Assembly (NCBI RefSeq): GCF_008830185.1
Contig: NZ_WAGX01000003.1
Location: 186,001 to 250,000, forward strand
Length of the DNA: 64,000 nucleotides
From: Candidatus Galacturonatibacter soehngenii
Lineage (GTDB): Bacteria > Bacillota > Clostridia > Lachnospirales > Lachnospiraceae
Direction of reading: 5' to 3'
The notes under the pieces: generated by a model
What the model saw: only the letters and a program-made list of their open reading frames with translations
Databases searched by the model: none
What the model was told of the DNA's origin: nothing
Translations under genes and position numbers: made by a program
In this document: piece after piece, positions 14,777-45,134 of the stretch
Position numbering within the stretch: position 1 is the stretch's first letter
How the letters are laid out: each line of letters opens with the position of its first letter

Positions 14777-16765
14777 TTATTTATTTTTTCGATATTGAAT
14801 TGGCGTCAAACCTATCTGTGTTTTAAATACGCGGATAAAATGTTCTGGGTTTTCATATCCTACCATATTCGAAATATCCTCTACCAACATATTGCTAGTT
14901 TTTAAAATATGACATGCTTTATTGAGACGGCATTCTTTCACTAAATTACCAAAGGTATTGCCTAACTTTTCCTTAATGTATTTTGATAAATAAGGTTCTG
15001 TTAAATGAAAGTGCTCTGCCATTGACGTCAATGTGATATCGTTGTAATGTTCTTTGATGTATGCATGCATTTCTTTTGCACGTTCATCTTGTAATCCATT
15101 ATTCCCGTTTAATTCTCCAAGTCTGTTAATTGCAGTAATCAAAGCTTGAATTGAAGCTTTAATTATATCATCATCAATTCCAACACCCCAATATGTCTTA
15201 TTATTTTCAACAATACCAACATATGCAATAGCCTTGGAGGAAGAACCACGCGTCAAAGAATGCTCGGAGTAATCAACTAAATCATATTCAAAACCAAAAT
15301 ACTCTTTTAAGGCATTGCTTACAGCATCCAAACGCCCATTTCCCATTCCATTTATGATAACTTTTTTACCTTTATGAAATACAGTAAGCTCGGTTTGAAT
15401 ACCATTTTTTTGCTTAAAGTGACATTCATCAACTGCAAAGGTAGAAGGTACGTCAACGTATTCTTCTTTAAAGATTTCATAAATCCACTGAGGAGTCAAT
15501 TCTTTGTGTTCACGATCTGAAACACTCTTTGCCAAGTAACTTACTTCTTCCTTCATTTTATCTGGCATAATAATACCAAAATTATTCTTAAGAATATAGC
15601 CCACTCCCCCCTTGCCAGACTGGCTGTTAAAGCGTATAACATCCGAATCATAGGCGCGACCAATATCTTTAGGATCAATTGGAAGATATGGAACGTTCCA
15701 GATATTATTTTCTTTTGCTTCGTGGCAAGCCATACCTTTTGCAATGGCATCCTGATGAGATCCTGAAAATGCAGTAAATACTAATTCGCCCGAGTAAGGC
15801 TGTCTTTCATAAACATGCATACGAGTCAAACGTTCATAGACTTCTGCAATCTCAGGTAAATTACTAAAATCAAGATTAGGATCAACTCCATGTGAAAACA
15901 TGTTCATAGCAACTGTAATAACATCAAGATTGCCTGTTCTTTCACCATTTCCAAATAATGTTCCCTCCAAACGATCTGCACCTGCAAGCAAACCAAATTC
16001 AGCGTCACTGATACCGCAGCCTCTGTCATTGTGAGGATGAAGAGATAAAATTACATTTTCTCTATAGTCTAGATTCTTATGTATGAATTCTACTTGACTG
16101 GCAAATACATGAGGCATAGCATTTTCAACTGTTGTTGGAATGTTAATAATTGCCTTATTATTACTGGTTGGTTTCCATACATTTAAAACAGCGTTACACA
16201 CCTCAAGGGCATAATCGACTTCTGCACCCGGAAAACTTTCAGGGCTGTATTCGAATTGGAAATTACCTTCTGTTTCCATGGCAAGTTTTTTTAATAATTT
16301 TGCACCTTGAATGGCAATTTCTTTTACTTCTTCCTTAGATTTTTTAAATACTTGTTCCCTTTGAGCAACGGATACAGAATTATATACGTGCACAATTGCA
16401 TTTGGCGCTCCTTTTAAAGCCTCAAAGGTTTTCTTGATAATATGTTCTCTTGCTTGTGTTAATACTTGAATTGTAACATCAGATGGAATCATATTTCGAT
16501 CAATTAATGCTCTGACGAATTCAAATTCTGTTTCAGAGGCAGCAGGAAATCCAACTTCAATTTCTTTGAAGCCAATTTTAACTAGTAATTGAAAAAATTC
16601 CAACTTTTCCTCAAGACTCATTGGTTCGATTAAGGCTTGATTGCCATCACGAAGGTCGACGCTACACCATATTGGGGCTTTATCAATTGCGTCTTTTTTT
16701 ACCCAGTCATAAGTCACATTAGTAGGCATAAAATACATCTTTTCATACTTTGTAAAATTTTTCAT
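14777..16765 (-). CDS. leuA: 2-isopropylmalate synthase with C-terminal AraC-type DNA-binding domain
   Basis: First enzyme of leucine synthesis: acetyl-CoA plus 2-ketoisovalerate gives 2-isopropylmalate. 662 residues, about 100 more than the long LeuA form. Visible order: HMGL-type TIM barrel (about 30-305) with [10 protein letters not shown] at 36-45, metal ligands in HPHNDRGCG, and [12 protein letters not shown]; a linker; an allosteric/dimerisation domain (about 440-560). Residues 563-662 form a complete AraC/XylS two-helix-turn-helix domain: [20 protein letters not shown] for the first HTH, and [20 protein letters not shown] then [11 protein letters not shown] for the second. The frame is continuous with no internal stop. 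RBS AGAGGAAG precedes ATG 16765. A leucine T-box leader lies upstream. I know of no characterised enzyme-regulator of this kind. Confidence 0.93.
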
Positions 16766-16820: not shown

Positions 16821-16870
16821 AAAAAAGTCCTTCATCTCAAACTGATTACTCAGTATAGAGACGAAGGACT
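16821..16870 (-). terminator. Attenuator terminator of the leuA T-box
   Basis: A 13-bp stem with one mismatch, 19-nt loop and T6 on the minus strand; the 5' arm lies just beyond the T-box core so that the antiterminator can compete with it. Confidence 0.85.
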
Positions 16871-17135
16871 ATATAATCGACTTCGCGGTACCACTCTAAT
16901 TCACGGCTATTTCATGAATCCTTCACGATTAGCACATGCACTCTATCGATACAGCCAATTGGCTTATATCGACTCCCTTTAACGCAAGGATTACGTCTAA
17001 CACTACTTTTACAACTAATAATTGTAAGTTCGAATAGCAGTTCCAAGGCTAGTTCCTTATATTCTGTCTGTTACTTCACACCAACCAGTAACTCTCTGAA
17101 AGCCAGGCAATAAGTAATACTCCTTTTCATAACCT
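16821..17135 (-). promoter_or_regulatory. T-box leader of leuA, leucine (CUA) specifier
   Basis: Read on the minus strand, this shows the conserved stem I segment CAGAGAGTTACTGGTTGGTG, the specifier-loop segment GGAACTAGCCTTGGA with CTA (Leu) at 17052-17050, the 14-nt T-box core AGAGTGGTACCGCG near 16884-16897, and a terminator whose stem AGTCCTTCGTCTC/GAGATGAAGGACT (16870-16826) is followed by a T-run. Uncharged tRNA-Leu should favour the antiterminator and raise leuA transcription. The 16766-17391 gap otherwise holds only AT-rich sequence before the sigma-factor gene. Confidence 0.93.
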
Positions 17136-17391
17136 TTGATGATTTAAGTTTTACATTGAAATAATAATATCATAGGCGAAACAATACTTCTAGTACTAAA
17201 TTTAATCAATTTGATTGATAAAATTTAATATAAGCATCCTATTATTATTAATTTCTTTTGTAGAACTACAATATTGATTATAATGAAACGTATCAGATTA
17301 AAATTTTTTGTATTTTTTGTAGTAATAGTAAAACAAATAACGTTATTATTAATATAACAATAATTTTTGGGATATGAGTGGAGGAAAAAAG

Positions 17392-32901: not shown

Positions 32902-32910
32902 ACATACATA

Positions 32911-32980
32911 AGCTGTATGACTGGCGGAAAGTGAGAGCACTCACAGGGAGTACAGCAAACAAATGCCGACCGCCTGGGCA
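32911..32980 (+). promoter_or_regulatory. ZTP riboswitch (pfl motif) of purH
   Basis: Carries the conserved pfl-motif parts: GCTGTATGACTGGCGG, the intervening helix GTGAG/CTCAC, GGGAGTACAGC closing the first helix, and the hallmark GCCGACCGCCTGGGC at 32965-32979, whose CCGCC can pseudoknot with GGCGG. It binds ZTP/AICAR and normally permits expression of purine/folate genes when one-carbon units run short. purH, whose substrate is AICAR, is the gene it controls. A T-run at 33003-33009 marks the expression platform. Confidence 0.93.
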
Positions 32981-33009
32981 ACCTACATGGTTTCTCAGAT
33001 GGTTTTTTT
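32980..33009 (+). terminator. Expression-platform terminator of the ZTP riboswitch
   Basis: Seven T at 33003-33009 follow a region where AACC (32980) can pair with either GGTT at 32989 or GGTT at 33001. The helix is weak as I read it and probably includes part of the aptamer 3' arm, consistent with mutually exclusive folding. Confidence 0.45.
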
Positions 33010-33103: not shown

Positions 33104-34660
33104 ATGAGAGCATTGATTAGTGTATCTGACAAAACAGGTATCGTGGAGTTAGCGAAAGAATTTGTGGAATTGGGTATTGAAATCATTTCAACTGGCGGAA
33201 CTTACAGTAAATTAAAGGAAGAAGGAGTAAAGGCGATCGAGATATCTGAACTCACTGGTTTTCCAGAGTGTTTAGATGGACGAGTTAAAACATTACATCC
33301 AGTTGTTCATGCAGGACTATTGGCAATGCGTGAAAAACAAGAGCACATGAAACAATTAGAAGAATTAAAGATTGAAACAATTGATATTGTTATTGTTAAC
33401 TTATATCCTTTCAAATCTACAATTCTAAAGGATGACGTTACAAGAGAAGAGGCAGTAGAAAATATTGATATTGGTGGGCCAACTATGCTTCGTTCAGCAG
33501 CAAAGAATTATCAGGATGTTGCAGTTGTAGTCGATCCAAGAGATTATGATAAAGTATTAGAAGAATTAAAAAAGGATAAAACAGTATCTCTTGATACAAA
33601 ATTTTATCTAATGCAAAAGGTATTTATGCATACATCAAACTATGATACCATGATAGCAGATTATTTAAAAAAGGAAAGACAAGATACAGCATTTCCAGAA
33701 ACCTTGACTATGACATTTGAAAAGGTACAGGATATGCGATATGGGGAGAATCCTCACCAATCTGCTGCGTTTTATAGAGAGATAGGCAAGCGAAAGGGAT
33801 CAATTGTGGATGCCATTCAGTTAAATGGAAAAGAACTATCCTTTAATAATATCAATGATACAAATGGTGCACTTGAGTTGTTAAAAGAATACAGTGAGCC
33901 TACAGTGGTTGCTTGTAAGCATGGGAATCCTTGTGGAGTAGGCAGTGCAGATACCATTATGGATGCTTGGATAAAGGCGTATCATGCTGATAAAACTTCC
34001 ATATTTGGTGGTATCGTCGTGCTTAATCGAGAAGTAACCAAAGAATTAGCACATGAGATGATACAAATATTTTTAGAAGTAATTGTTGCACCTTCTTATG
34101 AAAAAGAAGCGATTGAAATATTGCAGTCCAAGAAAAATGTTCGTGTTTTACAACTTACAGATATTTCAGTACCACAGCCAGAGACGGCATTTGATTTAAA
34201 GAAAGTAAATGGTGGACTGATTGTACAGACAATTGACAGTAAATTATTAACTGAAGATTCTAGGTTAGAGGTAGTTACGAAAACAAAACCAACAAAGGAA
34301 CAGATGCAAGATTTGATGTTCGCATGGAAAATGGTTAAGTTTGTAAAGTCAAATGGAATTGCAATTGCAAAGAATAAGCAGTCAGTAGGTATTGGACCAG
34401 GACAGGTGAATAGAGTATGGGCAACTCAACAAGCGGTAGAACATGCAGTGGAATTAATAGATGAAGAGGCAACAAAAGGAGCAGTACTTGCCTCAGATGC
34501 ATTTTTTCCATTTGATGATTGCGTAGAAGTAGCCCACAAGGCTGGTATCACTGCAATTATTCAACCAGGTGGTTCTGTTCGTGATGAAGATTCCATCAAG
34601 AAATGCGATGAATATGGAATTGCAATGATATTTACAGGAATGAGACATTTTAAGCATTAA
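33104..34660 (+). CDS. purH: Bifunctional AICAR transformylase / IMP cyclohydrolase
   Basis: Catalyses the last two steps of IMP synthesis. 518 residues, normal length. N-terminal MGS-like cyclohydrolase domain (about 1-190, [34 protein letters not shown]) and C-terminal transformylase domain with [13 protein letters not shown], the conserved [11 protein letters not shown], and [25 protein letters not shown] precedes the ATG. Monocistronic, controlled by the ZTP riboswitch. Confidence 0.97.
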
Positions 34661-39981: not shown

Positions 39982-40385
39982 TACAGCAAAAGCATTTAGT
40001 AGGTTTTTGCAGGAATTTTTTGACCATTTCTCATTCACGAAATTTCTCATGTGGATTTGAAATTAAGGCCATACGGACAGCCAGGTCAAATGCCGAATTG
40101 GCAACTTGGTTGCCTTATTGATTGAGTATTGTACTCAAATTTTATAAGTTGATGTTTTAATTGAAACATTGAGTTAGTGACTACACAACCGTGTGCATCT
40201 ACATGCACATCACACTTGTGAAACAATCAATAAGAGTGGTAAAAGTAATTCTTGCTATATAGACTCTATATGCTAATATTGGATAAATAAAATGAGAATG
40301 TAAATTCAAATATAAATAATACAAATTAGTGAACGAATTCAAGTGTAAAAGTAGTAGTAGACTGCCTTTGTACTTGATTTTTTTT
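39982..40385 (+). ncRNA. Candidate structured RNA of about 400 nt (leader or independent ncRNA)
   Basis: Lies between a near-consensus promoter and an intrinsic terminator and has no credible ORF. Exact long-range pairings are visible: TTTGACC (40019-40025) with GGTCAAA (40084-40090); CTTATTGATTG (40114-40124) with CAATCAATAAG (40224-40234). The second helix encloses hairpins TTGAGTA/TACTCAA (40122-40138), ATGTTT/AAACAT (40152-40169) and TGTGCAT/ATGCACA (40192-40209). GGCAAC-TTG-GTTGCC (40100-40114) sits between the two long helices. I cannot assign a known class. It is either a regulatory leader of the polyamine operon ending in an attenuator, or a free-standing ncRNA. Confidence 0.65.
40339..40385 (+). 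terminator. Terminator ending the structured RNA, upstream of speA
   Basis: TCAAGTGTAAAAG pairs with CTTTGTACTTGA (two wobbles, one bulge) followed by eight T at 40378-40385. It is 66 nt before the speA start and could act as an attenuator. Confidence 0.75.
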
Positions 40386-40451: not shown

Positions 40452-41897
40452 ATGCAATTAAATCAAAATCGCATGCCGATTTACGAGGCTTTAAACAATT
40501 TTAAGAAGGAACGTGTGGTTCCATTTGATGTCCCTGGGCACAAGAGGGGAAAAGGTAACGAAGAGCTTACTAATTTTTTAGGGGATAAATGTCTTGCAGT
40601 GGATGTGAATTCAATGAAGCCACTAGATAACTTGTGTCATCCTATGTCAGTCATACGTGAAGCTGAAGAGCTGGTTGCAGATGCCTTTGGAGCAGCCCAT
40701 GGTTTTTTAATGGTTGGTGGAACAACTTCAGCCGTACAAAGTATGGTGTTAGCTGCCTGCAAAGCAGGAGATAAGATTATTATGCCTAGAAACGTACATA
40801 GAAGTGCCATCAATGCATTGATTTTAAGTGGAGCGACTCCTGTTTACGTGAATCCAGGTGTGGATAATCGATTGGGAATAGCCCTTGGTATGTCTTTAAA
40901 AGAATTGGAGAAAGTAATAAAAGAGAATCCAGATGCAAAGGCTATTCTTGTCAATAATCCTACTTATTATGGAATTTGCTCTGATATTAAAGGGATTACA
41001 GAGCTTGCGCATAAGCATGGTATGCTAGTTCTTGCAGATGAAGCACACGGAACACATTTTTATTTTGATGAAAACCTGCCTATTTCAGCCATGGAGGCTG
41101 GTGCAGACATGGCGGCTATTAGTATGCATAAGTCAGGTGGAAGTTTAACACAAAGCTCCTTATTATTACTTGGTCCTAATGTAAATGAAGGCTATGTAAG
41201 ACAGATTATTAATTTAACACAAACTACAAGTGGTTCCTACTTGCTCATGTCAAGCCTTGACATTTCAAGAAAAAATCTAGCGTTACATGGAAGAGATATT
41301 TTTGAGAAGGTAAGAAGCTTGGCTCATTATGCAAGACAAGAAATCAATCAGATTGGCGATTACTATGCATATGCCAGAGAACTTGTGAATAACGATACCA
41401 TTTTTGATTATGATGTAACAAAATTATCGATTAACACTTTAGACATTGGATTAGCGGGAATCGAAGTATATGATTTGTTAAGAGATGAATATGGAATTCA
41501 AATTGAGTTTGGTGATATTGGAAATATATTAGCATACATCTCAGTAGGAGATAGAGAACGTGACATTGAAAGGCTCGTGAGTGCATTAGCTGAAATCCGA
41601 AGAAGGTATAAGAAAGATAGAGCAGGTATGCTTGATCATGAATATATTAATCCAATTGTTACAGTAACGCCTCAGCAGGCATTTTATGGAGAGAAATATT
41701 CCGTGCCGATTGGAGAAAGTATTGGTAAGGTATGTAGTGAATTTGTTATGTGTTATCCTCCTGGAATACCCGTTTTAGCACCAGGTGAGAGGATTACAAA
41801 GGATATTTTGGATTACATTTTATATGCGAAGGAAAAAGGTTGCTTTATGACTGGACCAGAGGATATGAAAATAGAGAATTTAAACGTATTAAAATAG
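40452..41897 (+). CDS. speA: Arginine (Orn/Lys/Arg) decarboxylase, fold type I PLP
   Basis: 481 residues, close to Bacillus SpeA in size. PLP-binding Lys227 in SMHKSGGSLTQSS, with DEAHG at 196-200 and FDVPGHKRG near the N terminus. Probably makes agmatine from arginine; lysine or ornithine specificity cannot be excluded from sequence alone. GGAGG precedes the ATG. First gene of the polyamine cluster, 13 nt before speE. Confidence 0.9.
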   Translation: MQLNQNRMPIYEALNNFKKERVVPFDVPGHKRGKGNEELTNFLGDKCLAVDVNSMKPLDNLCHPMSVIREAEELVADAFGAAHGFLMVGGTTSAVQSMVLAACKAGDKIIMPRNVHRSAINALILSGATPVYVNPGVDNRLGIALGMSLKELEKVIKENPDAKAILVNNPTYYGICSDIKGITELAHKHGMLVLADEAHGTHFYFDENLPISAMEAGADMAAISMHKSGGSLTQSSLLLLGPNVNEGYVRQIINLTQTTSGSYLLMSSLDISRKNLALHGRDIFEKVRSLAHYARQEINQIGDYYAYARELVNNDTIFDYDVTKLSINTLDIGLAGIEVYDLLRDEYGIQIEFGDIGNILAYISVGDRERDIERLVSALAEIRRRYKKDRAGMLDHEYINPIVTVTPQQAFYGEKYSVPIGESIGKVCSEFVMCYPPGIPVLAPGERITKDILDYILYAKEKGCFMTGPEDMKIENLNVLK

Positions 41898-41910: not shown

Positions 41911-42762
41911 ATGGAATTTTGGTTTACCGAGCATCATACCCCTGGGGTTAATTTTTCAATCAAGGTAGATAGGCAATTATTTAGTGCTCAAAGTGAAATA
42001 CAGCGCATTGATATTTTTGAATCCAAGGATTTTGGACGCTTCCTTGCTATGGATGGAAATATGATGTTAACCGAAAAAGATGAATTTATTTACCATGAAA
42101 TGATCGTGCATGTTCCAATGGCGGTTCATCCAAATGTTAAGAAAGTATTAGTAATTGGCGCTGGTGATGGCGGAGTGATTCGTGAATTAGCTAGATATGA
42201 AACCATAGAACATATAGACATGGTAGAACAAGATGAGTTGGTGGTAGAGGTTTGTAAAAAATATCTGCCTGTGACTGCCTGTTGTTTGGATGATAAACGT
42301 GTTGAAATCATTTATCAGGATGAACTTAAATTCGTTAGGAATTGTCACAATGAATATGATTTGATTATAGTCGATTCAACAGATCCTTTCGGACCAGCAG
42401 AAGGTTTATTTACAAAAGAATTCTATGGAAGCTGTGAAAAGGCATTAAAAGAAGATGGAATTATGGTAAACCAGCATGAGAGTGCCTTTTATAACGATGA
42501 TGCTATCATGATGCAACGAATTCATAAAAGGATTGTAGAAAGTTTTCCAATTAGCAAAGTCTATCAGGCACATATTCCGACGTATCATTCGGGCTATTGG
42601 CTCTTTGGATTTGCATCGAAAAAGTATCACCCTATTAAAGACTTTAGCAGTACCAGATGGAATGCAAGAGGCCTTCATACAAAATACTATAATACACAGT
42701 TACATGTGGGGGCATTTGCCTTACCAAACTATATTGAAGAATTACTACGTGATGTAGAATAA
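41911..42762 (+). CDS. speE: Spermidine synthase-like aminopropyltransferase
   Basis: 283 residues. The aminopropyl-donor site VLVIGAGDGGVIRELARYE and the catalytic Asp segment IIVDSTDPFGPAEGLF are intact, with the N-terminal beta domain FWFTEHHTPGVNFSIKV. It should transfer aminopropyl from decarboxylated SAM, but no SAM decarboxylase (SpeD) gene is in the window, and the next two genes encode the alternative carboxyspermidine route. The acceptor could be putrescine, agmatine or another amine. Confidence 0.92.
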   Translation: MEFWFTEHHTPGVNFSIKVDRQLFSAQSEIQRIDIFESKDFGRFLAMDGNMMLTEKDEFIYHEMIVHVPMAVHPNVKKVLVIGAGDGGVIRELARYETIEHIDMVEQDELVVEVCKKYLPVTACCLDDKRVEIIYQDELKFVRNCHNEYDLIIVDSTDPFGPAEGLFTKEFYGSCEKALKEDGIMVNQHESAFYNDDAIMMQRIHKRIVESFPISKVYQAHIPTYHSGYWLFGFASKKYHPIKDFSSTRWNARGLHTKYYNTQLHVGAFALPNYIEELLRDVE

Positions 42763-42793
42763 GATAGAATAACAATTACTAGGAGGAATTACA

Positions 42794-43996
42794 ATGGGAA
42801 AAGCGTTAATCATTGGTTGTGGAGGAGTTGCAAAAGTTGCAATTCATAAATGTTGTCAAAACAGTGAGGTATTTGAGGAAATCATGATAGCGAGCCGTAC
42901 AAAAAGCAAATGCGACGAACTAAAAGAGGAATTAGAAAAAAAGACGAAAACTATTATTCATACCGCACAAGTAGATGCGGATAATGTAGAGGAGCTCGTT
43001 AAATTAATAAAGCTATTTCAACCAGACGTTGTTTTGAATTTAGCATTGCCATATCAAGATTTAAGCATTATGGATGCATGTCTTGAGACAAAGACGCATT
43101 ATATTGATACGGCTAATTATGAACCGTTAGATACAGCCAAATTTGAATACAAATGGCAATGGGAATACAAAGAGAAGTTTAAAGAAGCAGGAATTATGGC
43201 ACTTCTTGGCAGCGGATTTGATCCTGGTGTAACGGGGGTATTTTCTGCTTATGCCCTAAAACATGAGTTTGATGAAATCAACTATATTGATATTTTAGAT
43301 TGCAATGGAGGAGACCATGGTTATCCATTTGCAACAAACTTTAATCCTGAAATTAACATTCGAGAAGTATCTGCCAATGGAAGCTATTGGCAAGATGGTA
43401 AGTGGGTAGAGACAAAGCCAATGGAAATTAAAAGAGAATATGACTTTAAAGGAGTAGGCAAAAAGGATATGTATTTACTCCACCATGAGGAATTAGAGTC
43501 TCTTGCAATCAATATTCCAGGTATCAAAAGAATTCGATTCTTTATGACTTTTGGACAAAGTTACCTCACACATTTAAAATGTCTTGAAAATGTTGGAATG
43601 ACATCGATCGAGCCAATTGAATACGAAGGAATGAAAATTGTTCCATTACAGTTTTTAAAAGCAGTTCTTCCAGATCCAGCTAGTCTTGGTCCGAGAACAG
43701 TTGGTAAGACCAATATCGGCTGTATCTTTAGAGGAAAAAAGGATGGTAAAGACAAAACATATTATTTATATAATATTTGTGACCATCAAGAATGTTATAA
43801 AGAAGTTGGTTCTCAAGCAATTAGTTATACCACAGGAGTTCCAGCTATGATAGGAGCAATGCTTGTGATGAATGGAACATGGAGTGGAAAAGGTGTATTT
43901 AATATAGAAGAATTTGATCCAGATCCATTTATGGAAGCATTAAATAAATGGGGGCTTCCATGGGAAGAGGATTTTAACCCAGTATTAGTAGATTAA
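42794..43996 (+). CDS. Carboxynorspermidine/carboxyspermidine dehydrogenase (saccharopine dehydrogenase family)
   Basis: 400 residues, N-terminal Rossmann fold KALIIGCGGVAKVAIHKC and the family segment ALLGSGFDPGVTGVFSAYAL. Members of this group reductively couple aspartate semialdehyde with a diamine to give carboxy(nor)spermidine. The assignment over saccharopine dehydrogenase proper rests on the nspC-type decarboxylase encoded 13 nt downstream. AGGAGG precedes the ATG. Confidence 0.88.
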   Translation: MGKALIIGCGGVAKVAIHKCCQNSEVFEEIMIASRTKSKCDELKEELEKKTKTIIHTAQVDADNVEELVKLIKLFQPDVVLNLALPYQDLSIMDACLETKTHYIDTANYEPLDTAKFEYKWQWEYKEKFKEAGIMALLGSGFDPGVTGVFSAYALKHEFDEINYIDILDCNGGDHGYPFATNFNPEINIREVSANGSYWQDGKWVETKPMEIKREYDFKGVGKKDMYLLHHEELESLAINIPGIKRIRFFMTFGQSYLTHLKCLENVGMTSIEPIEYEGMKIVPLQFLKAVLPDPASLGPRTVGKTNIGCIFRGKKDGKDKTYYLYNICDHQECYKEVGSQAISYTTGVPAMIGAMLVMNGTWSGKGVFNIEEFDPDPFMEALNKWGLPWEEDFNPVLVD

Positions 43997-44009
43997 GAAA
44001 GAGGAATCC

Positions 44010-45134
44010 ATGAATTACGAGAATATACAAACGCCTTGCTATGTAGTGGAGGAAGATAAACTAATAAAAAACTTGGAAATATTAAAAGATGTCATAGATA
44101 AAACAGGCTGTCATATCTTGCTTGCACAGAAGTGTTTTTCCATGTATTCAGTGTATCCACTTATACGCAAGTATTTAAATGGAACGACTTCAAGTGGTTT
44201 GTATGAAGCTAAGCTTGCTCATGAATATATGCATGGAGAAAACCATATTTATGCAGCTGCTTATCGAGAAGATGAAATAGAAGAAATTTTCACAATCTGT
44301 GACCATGTGGTATTTAATTCCTTTGCCCAATGGGAAAAATACAAACCACTTGCGATTAAATATAAAAAAGAGTGTGGTATTCGCATCAATCCTTCCTGCT
44401 CAACACAGGAGGGACATGCGATTTACGATCCTTGTGCGCCTTTTTCTAGAATGGGAGTGACAAAAGATAATTTTAGAGATGATTTGTTAGAAGGCATATC
44501 AGGATTACATTTTCACACATTGTGCGAGCAGAATTCAGATGATTTACTCACTACATTAAAAGCAGTAGAGGAACAATTTGGTTCTTATCTATATCAAATG
44601 AAATGGCTAAATTTTGGTGGGGGACATCATATAACAAGAAAAGATTATGATATAGAGACGTTGATTTATTGTATCAAGCATATGAAAGAGACGTATGATT
44701 TAGAGATTTACCTTGAGCCTGGAGAAGCAGTTGCCTTAGATGCAGGATATCTGGTTACTACGGTGCTAGATATCGTTGAAAACGGTATGAATATAGCAAT
44801 ACTTGATACCTCAGCAGCTTGCCATATGCCAGATGTACTTGAGATGCCTTATCGCCCACAAATTGTTGGGGGATATGATGCAAAGGAAAAACCATATACG
44901 TATCGCCTTGGGGGACCAACTTGTCTTTCAGGAGATATCATAGGAGATTATTCTTTTGAAAAGCCTTTACAAATTGGTTCTAAACTATTATTATGTGATA
45001 TGGCAATTTATTCTATGGTAAAGAATAATACCTTTAATGGAATGAAATTACCTGCAATTGCATTAAAAAAAGGTGAAACAATAGAGATAGTCAAAGAATT
45101 TGGCTATGATGATTTTAAGATGCGCCTTTCCTGA
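44010..45134 (+). CDS. nspC: Carboxynorspermidine/carboxyspermidine decarboxylase
   Basis: 374 residues, fold type III PLP enzyme. PLP Lys41 in LLAQKCFSMYSVYP, then TTSSGLYEAKLAHEYM, glycine loop LNFGGGHHITRKDYD and the dimer-site segment GPTCLSGDIIGDY. It decarboxylates the product of the upstream dehydrogenase to (nor)spermidine. The stop is 33 nt before the histidine kinase ATG with no hairpin terminator between. Confidence 0.92.
   Translation: MNYENIQTPCYVVEEDKLIKNLEILKDVIDKTGCHILLAQKCFSMYSVYPLIRKYLNGTTSSGLYEAKLAHEYMHGENHIYAAAYREDEIEEIFTICDHVVFNSFAQWEKYKPLAIKYKKECGIRINPSCSTQEGHAIYDPCAPFSRMGVTKDNFRDDLLEGISGLHFHTLCEQNSDDLLTTLKAVEEQFGSYLYQMKWLNFGGGHHITRKDYDIETLIYCIKHMKETYDLEIYLEPGEAVALDAGYLVTTVLDIVENGMNIAILDTSAACHMPDVLEMPYRPQIVGGYDAKEKPYTYRLGGPTCLSGDIIGDYSFEKPLQIGSKLLLCDMAIYSMVKNNTFNGMKLPAIALKKGETIEIVKEFGYDDFKMRLS

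Follow-up and report, generated by a model that had tools for sequence, protein, structure and literature searches.

Among described systems, the closest to the protein reported here are trigger enzymes in which a DNA-binding domain is fused to the enzyme, for which passages of PMC8249747 name PutA, BirA and NadR. PutA is described there as binding solely the putA-putP spacer, its own promoter region, and the five E. coli trigger enzymes that this passage lists do not include LeuA. As far as that text describes them, PutA, BirA and NadR resemble the LeuA-AraC fusion of this study in that a metabolic enzyme and a DNA-binding function lie on one chain. The fusion differs from them in its enzyme, which catalyses the committed first step towards leucine, in its DNA-binding domain, which is of the AraC/XylS type and C-terminal, and probably in its sign, since the promoter layout points to activation.

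AraC/XylS regulators (AraC, SoxS, Rns, YesN-type) share with the fusion the DNA-binding domain, by sequence and by fold, as well as a tandem operator ahead of the promoter, whereas the sensor part of the fusion is a whole biosynthetic enzyme. Within this family, Ada is an AraC-type domain joined to a DNA-repair enzyme. In yeast, leucine-pathway transcription is tied to the LeuA step via 2-isopropylmalate by Leu3, a separate zinc-cluster protein; in the fusion, by contrast, regulator and enzyme are on one chain. Mycobacterium tuberculosis LeuA (1SR9, 3FIG, 3HPZ) shares the catalytic, post-catalytic and allosteric domains but is without the AraC domain. The last related system, the T-box leader (RF00230), is likewise present upstream of leuA in the DNA studied here, but there it lies behind an operator that we infer to be bound by the gene's own product. 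A literature search of open-access PMC papers found neither a LeuA-AraC fusion nor LeuA as a trigger enzyme. What is new here is the fusion gene's own predicted operator, a tandem element of about 40 bp before an extended -10 box.

A LeuA with a C-terminal AraC-type domain in one reading frame

The window, meaning the whole 64,000-nucleotide stretch of DNA that was analysed, carries a single open reading frame at 14777–16765 on the minus strand, with an ATG start, zero internal stops and 662 encoded amino acids. A sequence-only reading of this DNA had claimed LeuA and an AraC-type domain in one minus-strand frame, and its coordinates, strand and length proved right. Pfam domains, each above its gathering score, comprise the HMGL-like catalytic barrel (residues 31–308; 15842–16675, minus strand; 2.1e-71), the post-catalytic domain IPMS_D2 (residues 327–393; 15587–15787, minus; 2.2e-33) and the allosteric domain LeuA_dimer (residues 422–549; 15119–15502, minus; 5.3e-27), which is also delimited in the AlphaFold model. 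A variable linker of low conservation (residues 550–561; 15083–15118, minus), with pLDDT below 50 at 551–560, leads to the AraC/XylS DNA-binding domain (residues 562–662; 14780–15082, minus), for which Pfam, the model helices and PDB matches agree. Both helix-turn-helix (HTH) motifs that had been read in this tail were recovered, HTH_18 at residues 582–660 (E 1.3e-18) and HTH_AraC at residues 621–660 (E 6e-12). By comparison with the AraC family, we take the helices at residues 590–601 (14963–14998, minus) and 640–651 (14813–14848, minus), both placed by conservation and the AlphaFold model, to be the first and second recognition helices.

In NCBIfam, the protein scores 803.7 bits against NF002991 (PRK03739 subfamily; cut-off 455) and 673.6 bits against TIGR00970 leuA_yeast, under the cut-off of 697.4. 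When aligned with M. tuberculosis LeuA, it shows the RD and HxH motifs, presumably the catalytic residues of LeuA, at the aligned place, and SLHPHNDRG and one further 11-residue motif are identical or near-identical. Because the AlphaFold model of the barrel is poor (mean pLDDT 67.4, pTM 0.48; 15-row alignment), we left the barrel out and restricted the structural reading to the allosteric and HTH domains. The allosteric domain is modelled confidently, and the C-terminus forms seven helices (561–660) with a block pLDDT of 77–90, falling to 57 for the last two residues. The top Foldseek match of the model is M. tuberculosis LeuA (E 1.4e-43). The structural comparison that had been proposed for the tail yielded an AraC-family fold, with an rmsd of 1.4 over 101 columns to 6swi and of 1.8 over 102 columns to 3lsg, and the domain also matches AraC-family PDB entries by sequence.

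The window's genome additionally encodes a plain LeuA without an HTH on another contig (L002, G000:C8:209083-210729; 53% identity). In all, 62 matches to the fusion protein were found in this genome, mostly to the HTH part only, and two other genomes of the genus have one LeuA match each at E ≤ 1e-100.

Spread, origin and conservation of the fusion

Full-length orthologues exist at 91% and 87% identity in two other genomes of the genus and at 60–70% identity in many genera, which rules out a chance join as well as a frameshift error, the weak point named by the sequence-only reading. The proposed search for the spread of the architecture found the full fusion in at least 89 of 397 Lachnospiraceae genomes, 362 of which have a LeuA at E ≤ 1e-100; two further genomes of this draw carry a split fusion, and one a fusion cut by a contig end. 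At the order level, 172 of 295 genomes had a match at E ≤ 1e-150, and the 17 fusions among the matches listed were all from Lachnospiraceae, with none from other families. A class-level draw gave matches at E ≤ 1e-200 in 83 of 391 genomes; 13 of these 83 were fusions, three of them outside Lachnospiraceae (G739, G873, G875), a family of which Konateibacter and Muricomes are members. The three fusions from other families suggest that the fusion was transferred or arose earlier. On a FastTree tree of the LeuA part only (near-copies L017, L018 and L022 left out), in which 43 of 115 inner branches are open, the HTH label needs at least six changes. The plain LeuAs L020/L023, L058 and L061 neighbour fusions with branch support, the pattern that HTH losses would leave; L064 and L074 also adjoin fusions, but on open branches. 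One gain of the HTH with losses afterwards is the likely history on this tree.

For conservation, we used 95 distinct fusions, leaving out the duplicates L009, L010, L028, L038 and L046 and the fragments L025 and L073. The mean majority fraction was 0.746 in the HTH domain versus 0.732 in LeuA_dimer, and 0.454 in the linker (550–566). In the first HTH, Y592 (94/95), S594 (95/95) and K595 (92/95) are kept; in the second, GYQNVEHFNR, so are E641 (94/95), H642 (93/95) and R645 (94/95). E641 and H642 lie outside the generic AraC pattern. The outcome that the sequence-only reading had named as refuting, homologues lacking the DNA-contact residues, did not occur in these 95 fusions, with the window's genus deviating from the majority at four positions (E590, E638, P640, I644). 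In nine close pairs, HTH pN was 0.013–0.111 versus a pS of at least 0.375, and by this measure the HTH domain is under purifying selection. This selection, together with the orthologues in the genus and in many genera, leads us to reject an artefactual or frameshifted join.

A tandem operator candidate tied to HTH-bearing LeuAs

The predicted operator was first noticed upstream of fusions without a T-box. Its description as a plain ATCAA-N5-TTGAT palindrome was dropped, as the alignment of 52 sites (about 42 columns) gave a tandem element of roughly 40 bp; these first 52 sites were picked by pattern, and the conservation of their core is hence by choice. Over 91 sites, the majority sequence is AnatTAAAAtAnATCAAnaAAAnTGATTAAAtTTancacTt, which we read as two direct half-sites, TTAA-N5-ATCA and TTAA-N4/5-ATCA, 22–23 bp apart. 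Direct half-site pairs are a common form of AraC-family operators. In the window, this operator, O1, occupies 42 columns at 17190–17231 on the minus strand (PWM score 41.1; reference base 17219), and its exact core match at 17202–17219 is the sole one in the window's genome.

We set the PWM threshold at -14.1, the best score among 94 shuffled upstream regions; the best coding-region score was -24.2. Above this threshold, the operator was found in 89 of 94 scored fusions (L036 was left out for its short upstream region) and in both split versions, and in 39 of the 44 fusions outside the matrix-building set; no operator above it was found in L108, L115, L117, L118 and L124. Three of 26 LeuAs without a fused HTH also passed, namely the two split forms and L070 (-13.0). 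With a cut-off of -10 applied to the tree rows, 89 of 94 HTH-bearing LeuAs (92 fusions and 2 split forms) have the operator versus none of 23 plain LeuAs, L070 dropping out. Among these related sequences, only four supported independent HTH pairs exist, and the operator follows the HTH in 3.9 of the 4 on average (sign test p 0.125). All three later-fetched fusions from outside the family have it (34.9, 25.4 and 46.3), as opposed to none of four plain LeuAs of other families (-34.0 to -52.5). Four fusions of one already-represented Lachnospiraceae genus scored 20.7–39.3; neither L166, whose protein is identical to L024, nor L251, from the genome of L096, was counted as an unseen case. Comparison across these LeuAs shows a near-exclusive link of the putative operator to the HTH, and a fixed promoter geometry (see below).

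In the two split forms, the HTH follows LeuA in a different frame (L055, 4663–4980; L056, 2721–3065), and the operator is retained with scores of 42.7 and 17.3, respectively. The frame change of L055 sits at a run of eight A, making a programmed frameshift possible there; L056 has no eight-A run at its frame change. If real, the split HTH may be a separate small protein or be joined through frameshifting.

The operator also varies with the protein. Residue 590, at the start of the presumed first recognition helix, goes with operator base +24: among 87 fusions, C occurs with K in 53, T with E in 14, T with K in one and C with E in none, the other 19 showing further combinations. The window has T and E. 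The 20 top pairs of the covariation scan divide equally between HTH positions (10) and positions within LeuA (10). Because only four supported independent pairs stand behind it, of which 2.7 are concordant on average, the covariation of base +24 with residue 590 is suggestive.

In a subgroup comprising L027, L029, L039 and relatives, the operator is enclosed in an inverted repeat, GGAAAGTGA...TCACTTTCC, with a T run behind it, an arrangement also readable as a terminator of the upstream gene.

Promoter geometry and the T-box leader

Downstream of O1, an extended -10 box, TGATATTAT, lies at 17164–17172 on the minus strand, 47 bp from the operator reference base; judged by this box, leuA transcription would start near 17157. 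Across the fusions, an extended -10 (TGnTAnn[A/T]) starts at exactly +47 in 69 of 91 cases and at 45–48 in 78, and a match to this expression is absent in the remaining 13; the commonest -10 hexamers are TAGGAT (18/69) and TAGTAT (11/69). The fusions outside the family follow suit, with the extended -10 at +47 in two and a near match there in the third. A -35 with at least five of six matches to TTGACA occurs in 2 of 69 (1.5 expected), and one with at least four in 22 of 69 (11 expected by shuffling). The main operator ends about where a -35 would begin. An operator abutting a poor -35 is the usual layout of AraC-family activators. The position of the operator end and the fixed -10 spacing speak for activation, which we consider reasonably probable as the action of the fusion protein.

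A second site resembling ATCAA-N5-TTGAT is common: 51 of the 89 leaders have one that agrees at 8 or more of the 10 positions (7.3 expected by shuffling), and 19 have one that agrees at 9 or more (0.5 expected), counts to which related species contribute much. These sites lie 55–94 bp past the first. Their offsets cluster at 73–74 (24 cases) and at 63 (7 cases), distances close to seven and six turns of the helix. This arrangement suggests repression or looping in many relatives. In the window, the best second site (8/10 at +79) is within the chance rate.

The T-box that had been read upstream of leuA was recovered at 16854–17139 on the minus strand (RF00230, 115.1 bits, cut-off 93; model positions 1–219 of 219), and in our reading its specifier-aligned triplet is CUA (Leu). 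The order in the window is thus operator (17231–17190), extended -10 (17172–17164), T-box (17139–16854) and leuA (from 16765); the presence of both elements in the window rules out that T-box and operator are strict alternatives. Of the HTH-bearing LeuAs, 18 of 94 have the T-box consensus upstream, compared with 17 of 23 plain ones (21/95 versus 18/26 with a looser expression, some of whose matches are doubtful); as far as the few independent pairs can indicate, most lineages with the HTH would seem to have dropped the T-box. The double control by protein and T-box that the sequence-only reading had proposed is hence compatible with the window itself but does not hold for HTH-bearing LeuAs in general.

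Genome-wide specificity of the operator

Of 39 genomes with a fused or split gene, 30 contain the exact core pattern, 29 of them at leuA, as against 1 of 39 other genomes. In the family draw, it was found in 53 of 92 genomes, 49 of them with a match at leuA, versus 13 of 305 genomes outside the fusion set (Fisher 1.8e-28); in 5 of these 13, the listed leuA is on another contig than the match. A stricter pattern (19 bases, one mismatch) gave 52 matches in 80 fusion genomes, 49 of them before leuA, with no match in 30 of the 80; its reversed control gave 2 matches in the same genomes. Of the three other matches of the stricter pattern, one precedes the leuB-ilvD-ilvB operon of G342, and two, in G157 and G124, look like chance (matrix scores of 0.8 and below -19).

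The only second target that we found is an operator of the same type before the leuB-ilvD-ilvB operon of G342 (L226, position 182). Eight exact-pattern matches of fusion genomes lie off leuA; no branched-chain gene was recognised among the frames of 80 aa or more that begin on the same strand within 1.5 kb of them, and the matches in G208 and G038 sit within frames. Among 60 loci, 30 of the aconitase family and 30 of the IlvD family (thereby not every leuC of 25 fusion genomes), 59 were without a strong operator, the one strong site being that of G342. A weak operator (-7.5) precedes leuC of the window's genome and is not kept in L199, the one genus relative compared at this locus. A shared motif upstream of leu/ilv genes, for which the sequence-only reading had proposed to look, was seen at leuA and at one leuB-ilvD-ilvB operon but not at 59 of the 60 leuC/aconitase and ilvD loci. 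With one strong site among these 60 loci, a wide leucine regulon is unsupported, and with 49 of the 52 stricter-pattern matches at leuA the fusion regulator seems close to single-target.

Interpretation of the fusion as a probable trigger enzyme

We propose that this LeuA is a bifunctional 2-isopropylmalate synthase, probably a trigger enzyme that regulates its own gene via the operator. The N-terminal part would produce 2-isopropylmalate, while the C-terminal AraC/XylS domain would bind the tandem operator that immediately precedes the leuA promoter, thereby controlling transcription of leuA, its own gene, the two AraC domains of one LeuA dimer occupying the two half-sites. Activation would follow from the extended -10, the weak -35 and the fixed spacing. 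DNA binding may be set by a ligand of the enzyme part, namely leucine, the substrate or the product, with the short variable linker tying the AraC domain to the leucine-binding allosteric domain. In the window, the T-box would add control by uncharged tRNA-Leu, putting two leucine sensors in series, and in many relatives the second site near the expected transcription start may add a repressing or looping step. The transcription-regulator role assigned to the tail by the sequence-only reading is well supported by two comparative lines of evidence, the selection on the HTH and an operator tied to the fusion.

Could the operator instead serve a separately encoded regulator, the fused AraC domain being a structural or oligomerisation appendage? 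Dozens of AraC-type domains are encoded in the window's genome and the independent evolutionary pairs are few, both of which would suit such a regulator. Yet the operator tracks the HTH in presence and absence, persists in both split forms, occurs in each genome almost solely at leuA and covaries with residue 590 in the first recognition helix; conserved recognition residues, moreover, would be needless in an appendage. We regard a separate regulator as improbable. That the joined frame stems from a sequencing or assembly artefact, or is a decaying chance in-frame join, has next to no probability: L055 and L056 do carry the HTH in another frame, but the window itself gives no support, the fusion is carried by three genomes outside the family and by 89 or more of the 397 within it, and the HTH is under purifying selection.

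A further alternative concerns the sign of control rather than the regulator. The AraC domain might repress its own promoter from the operator, a negative autoregulation like that of PutA, with leucine or 2-isopropylmalate as the signal. The second operator-like site, which lies over or just past the expected transcription start in a subset of leaders, would fit such repression. Against it, the main site ends where a -35 would start, at a fixed distance to the extended -10 (69/91) and with a poor -35, and the best second site of the window does not exceed chance. We thus consider repression rather unlikely and retain a trigger enzyme that activates from its own operator as the preferred reading.

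A more specific form of this reading, which we put forward tentatively and would rate at somewhat below even, is that a single leucine-binding event shuts down the enzyme and at the same time switches the promoter of its gene, with the AraC domain gated by the allosteric domain. Such gating would entail activation from O1 and, in many relatives, repression or looping via the second site (O2) near the transcription start; in the window, leuA would read leucine both as the free amino acid, through the protein, and as tRNA charging, through the RNA. If the trigger-enzyme reading is true, a first-step biosynthetic enzyme acts as its own transcription factor, in a fusion found widely across a major family of gut and rumen bacteria and unreported within the open-access literature searched. 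A general question becomes testable, namely whether one and the same allosteric event can both inhibit an enzyme by feedback and feed back on its gene, and the operator, the promoter and the natural split versions are available as test material. At leuA, protein and RNA control would replace or overlap one another in evolution.

Other elements in the window

Two further RNA elements were found in the window. An RF02440 element (Streptococcus sRNA SpF59, alias ldcC RNA; 63.8 bits) at 40021–40096 on the plus strand lies upstream of a lysine decarboxylase LdcC-like gene (40452–41897; under the cut-off of the LdcC model), downstream of which spermidine/carboxynorspermidine genes occupy 41911–45134; the element looks like the leader of a polyamine operon. 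A ZMP/ZTP riboswitch (RF01750, 59.1 bits) at 32907–32986 on the plus strand stands directly before purH (33104–34660), which is an ordinary arrangement.
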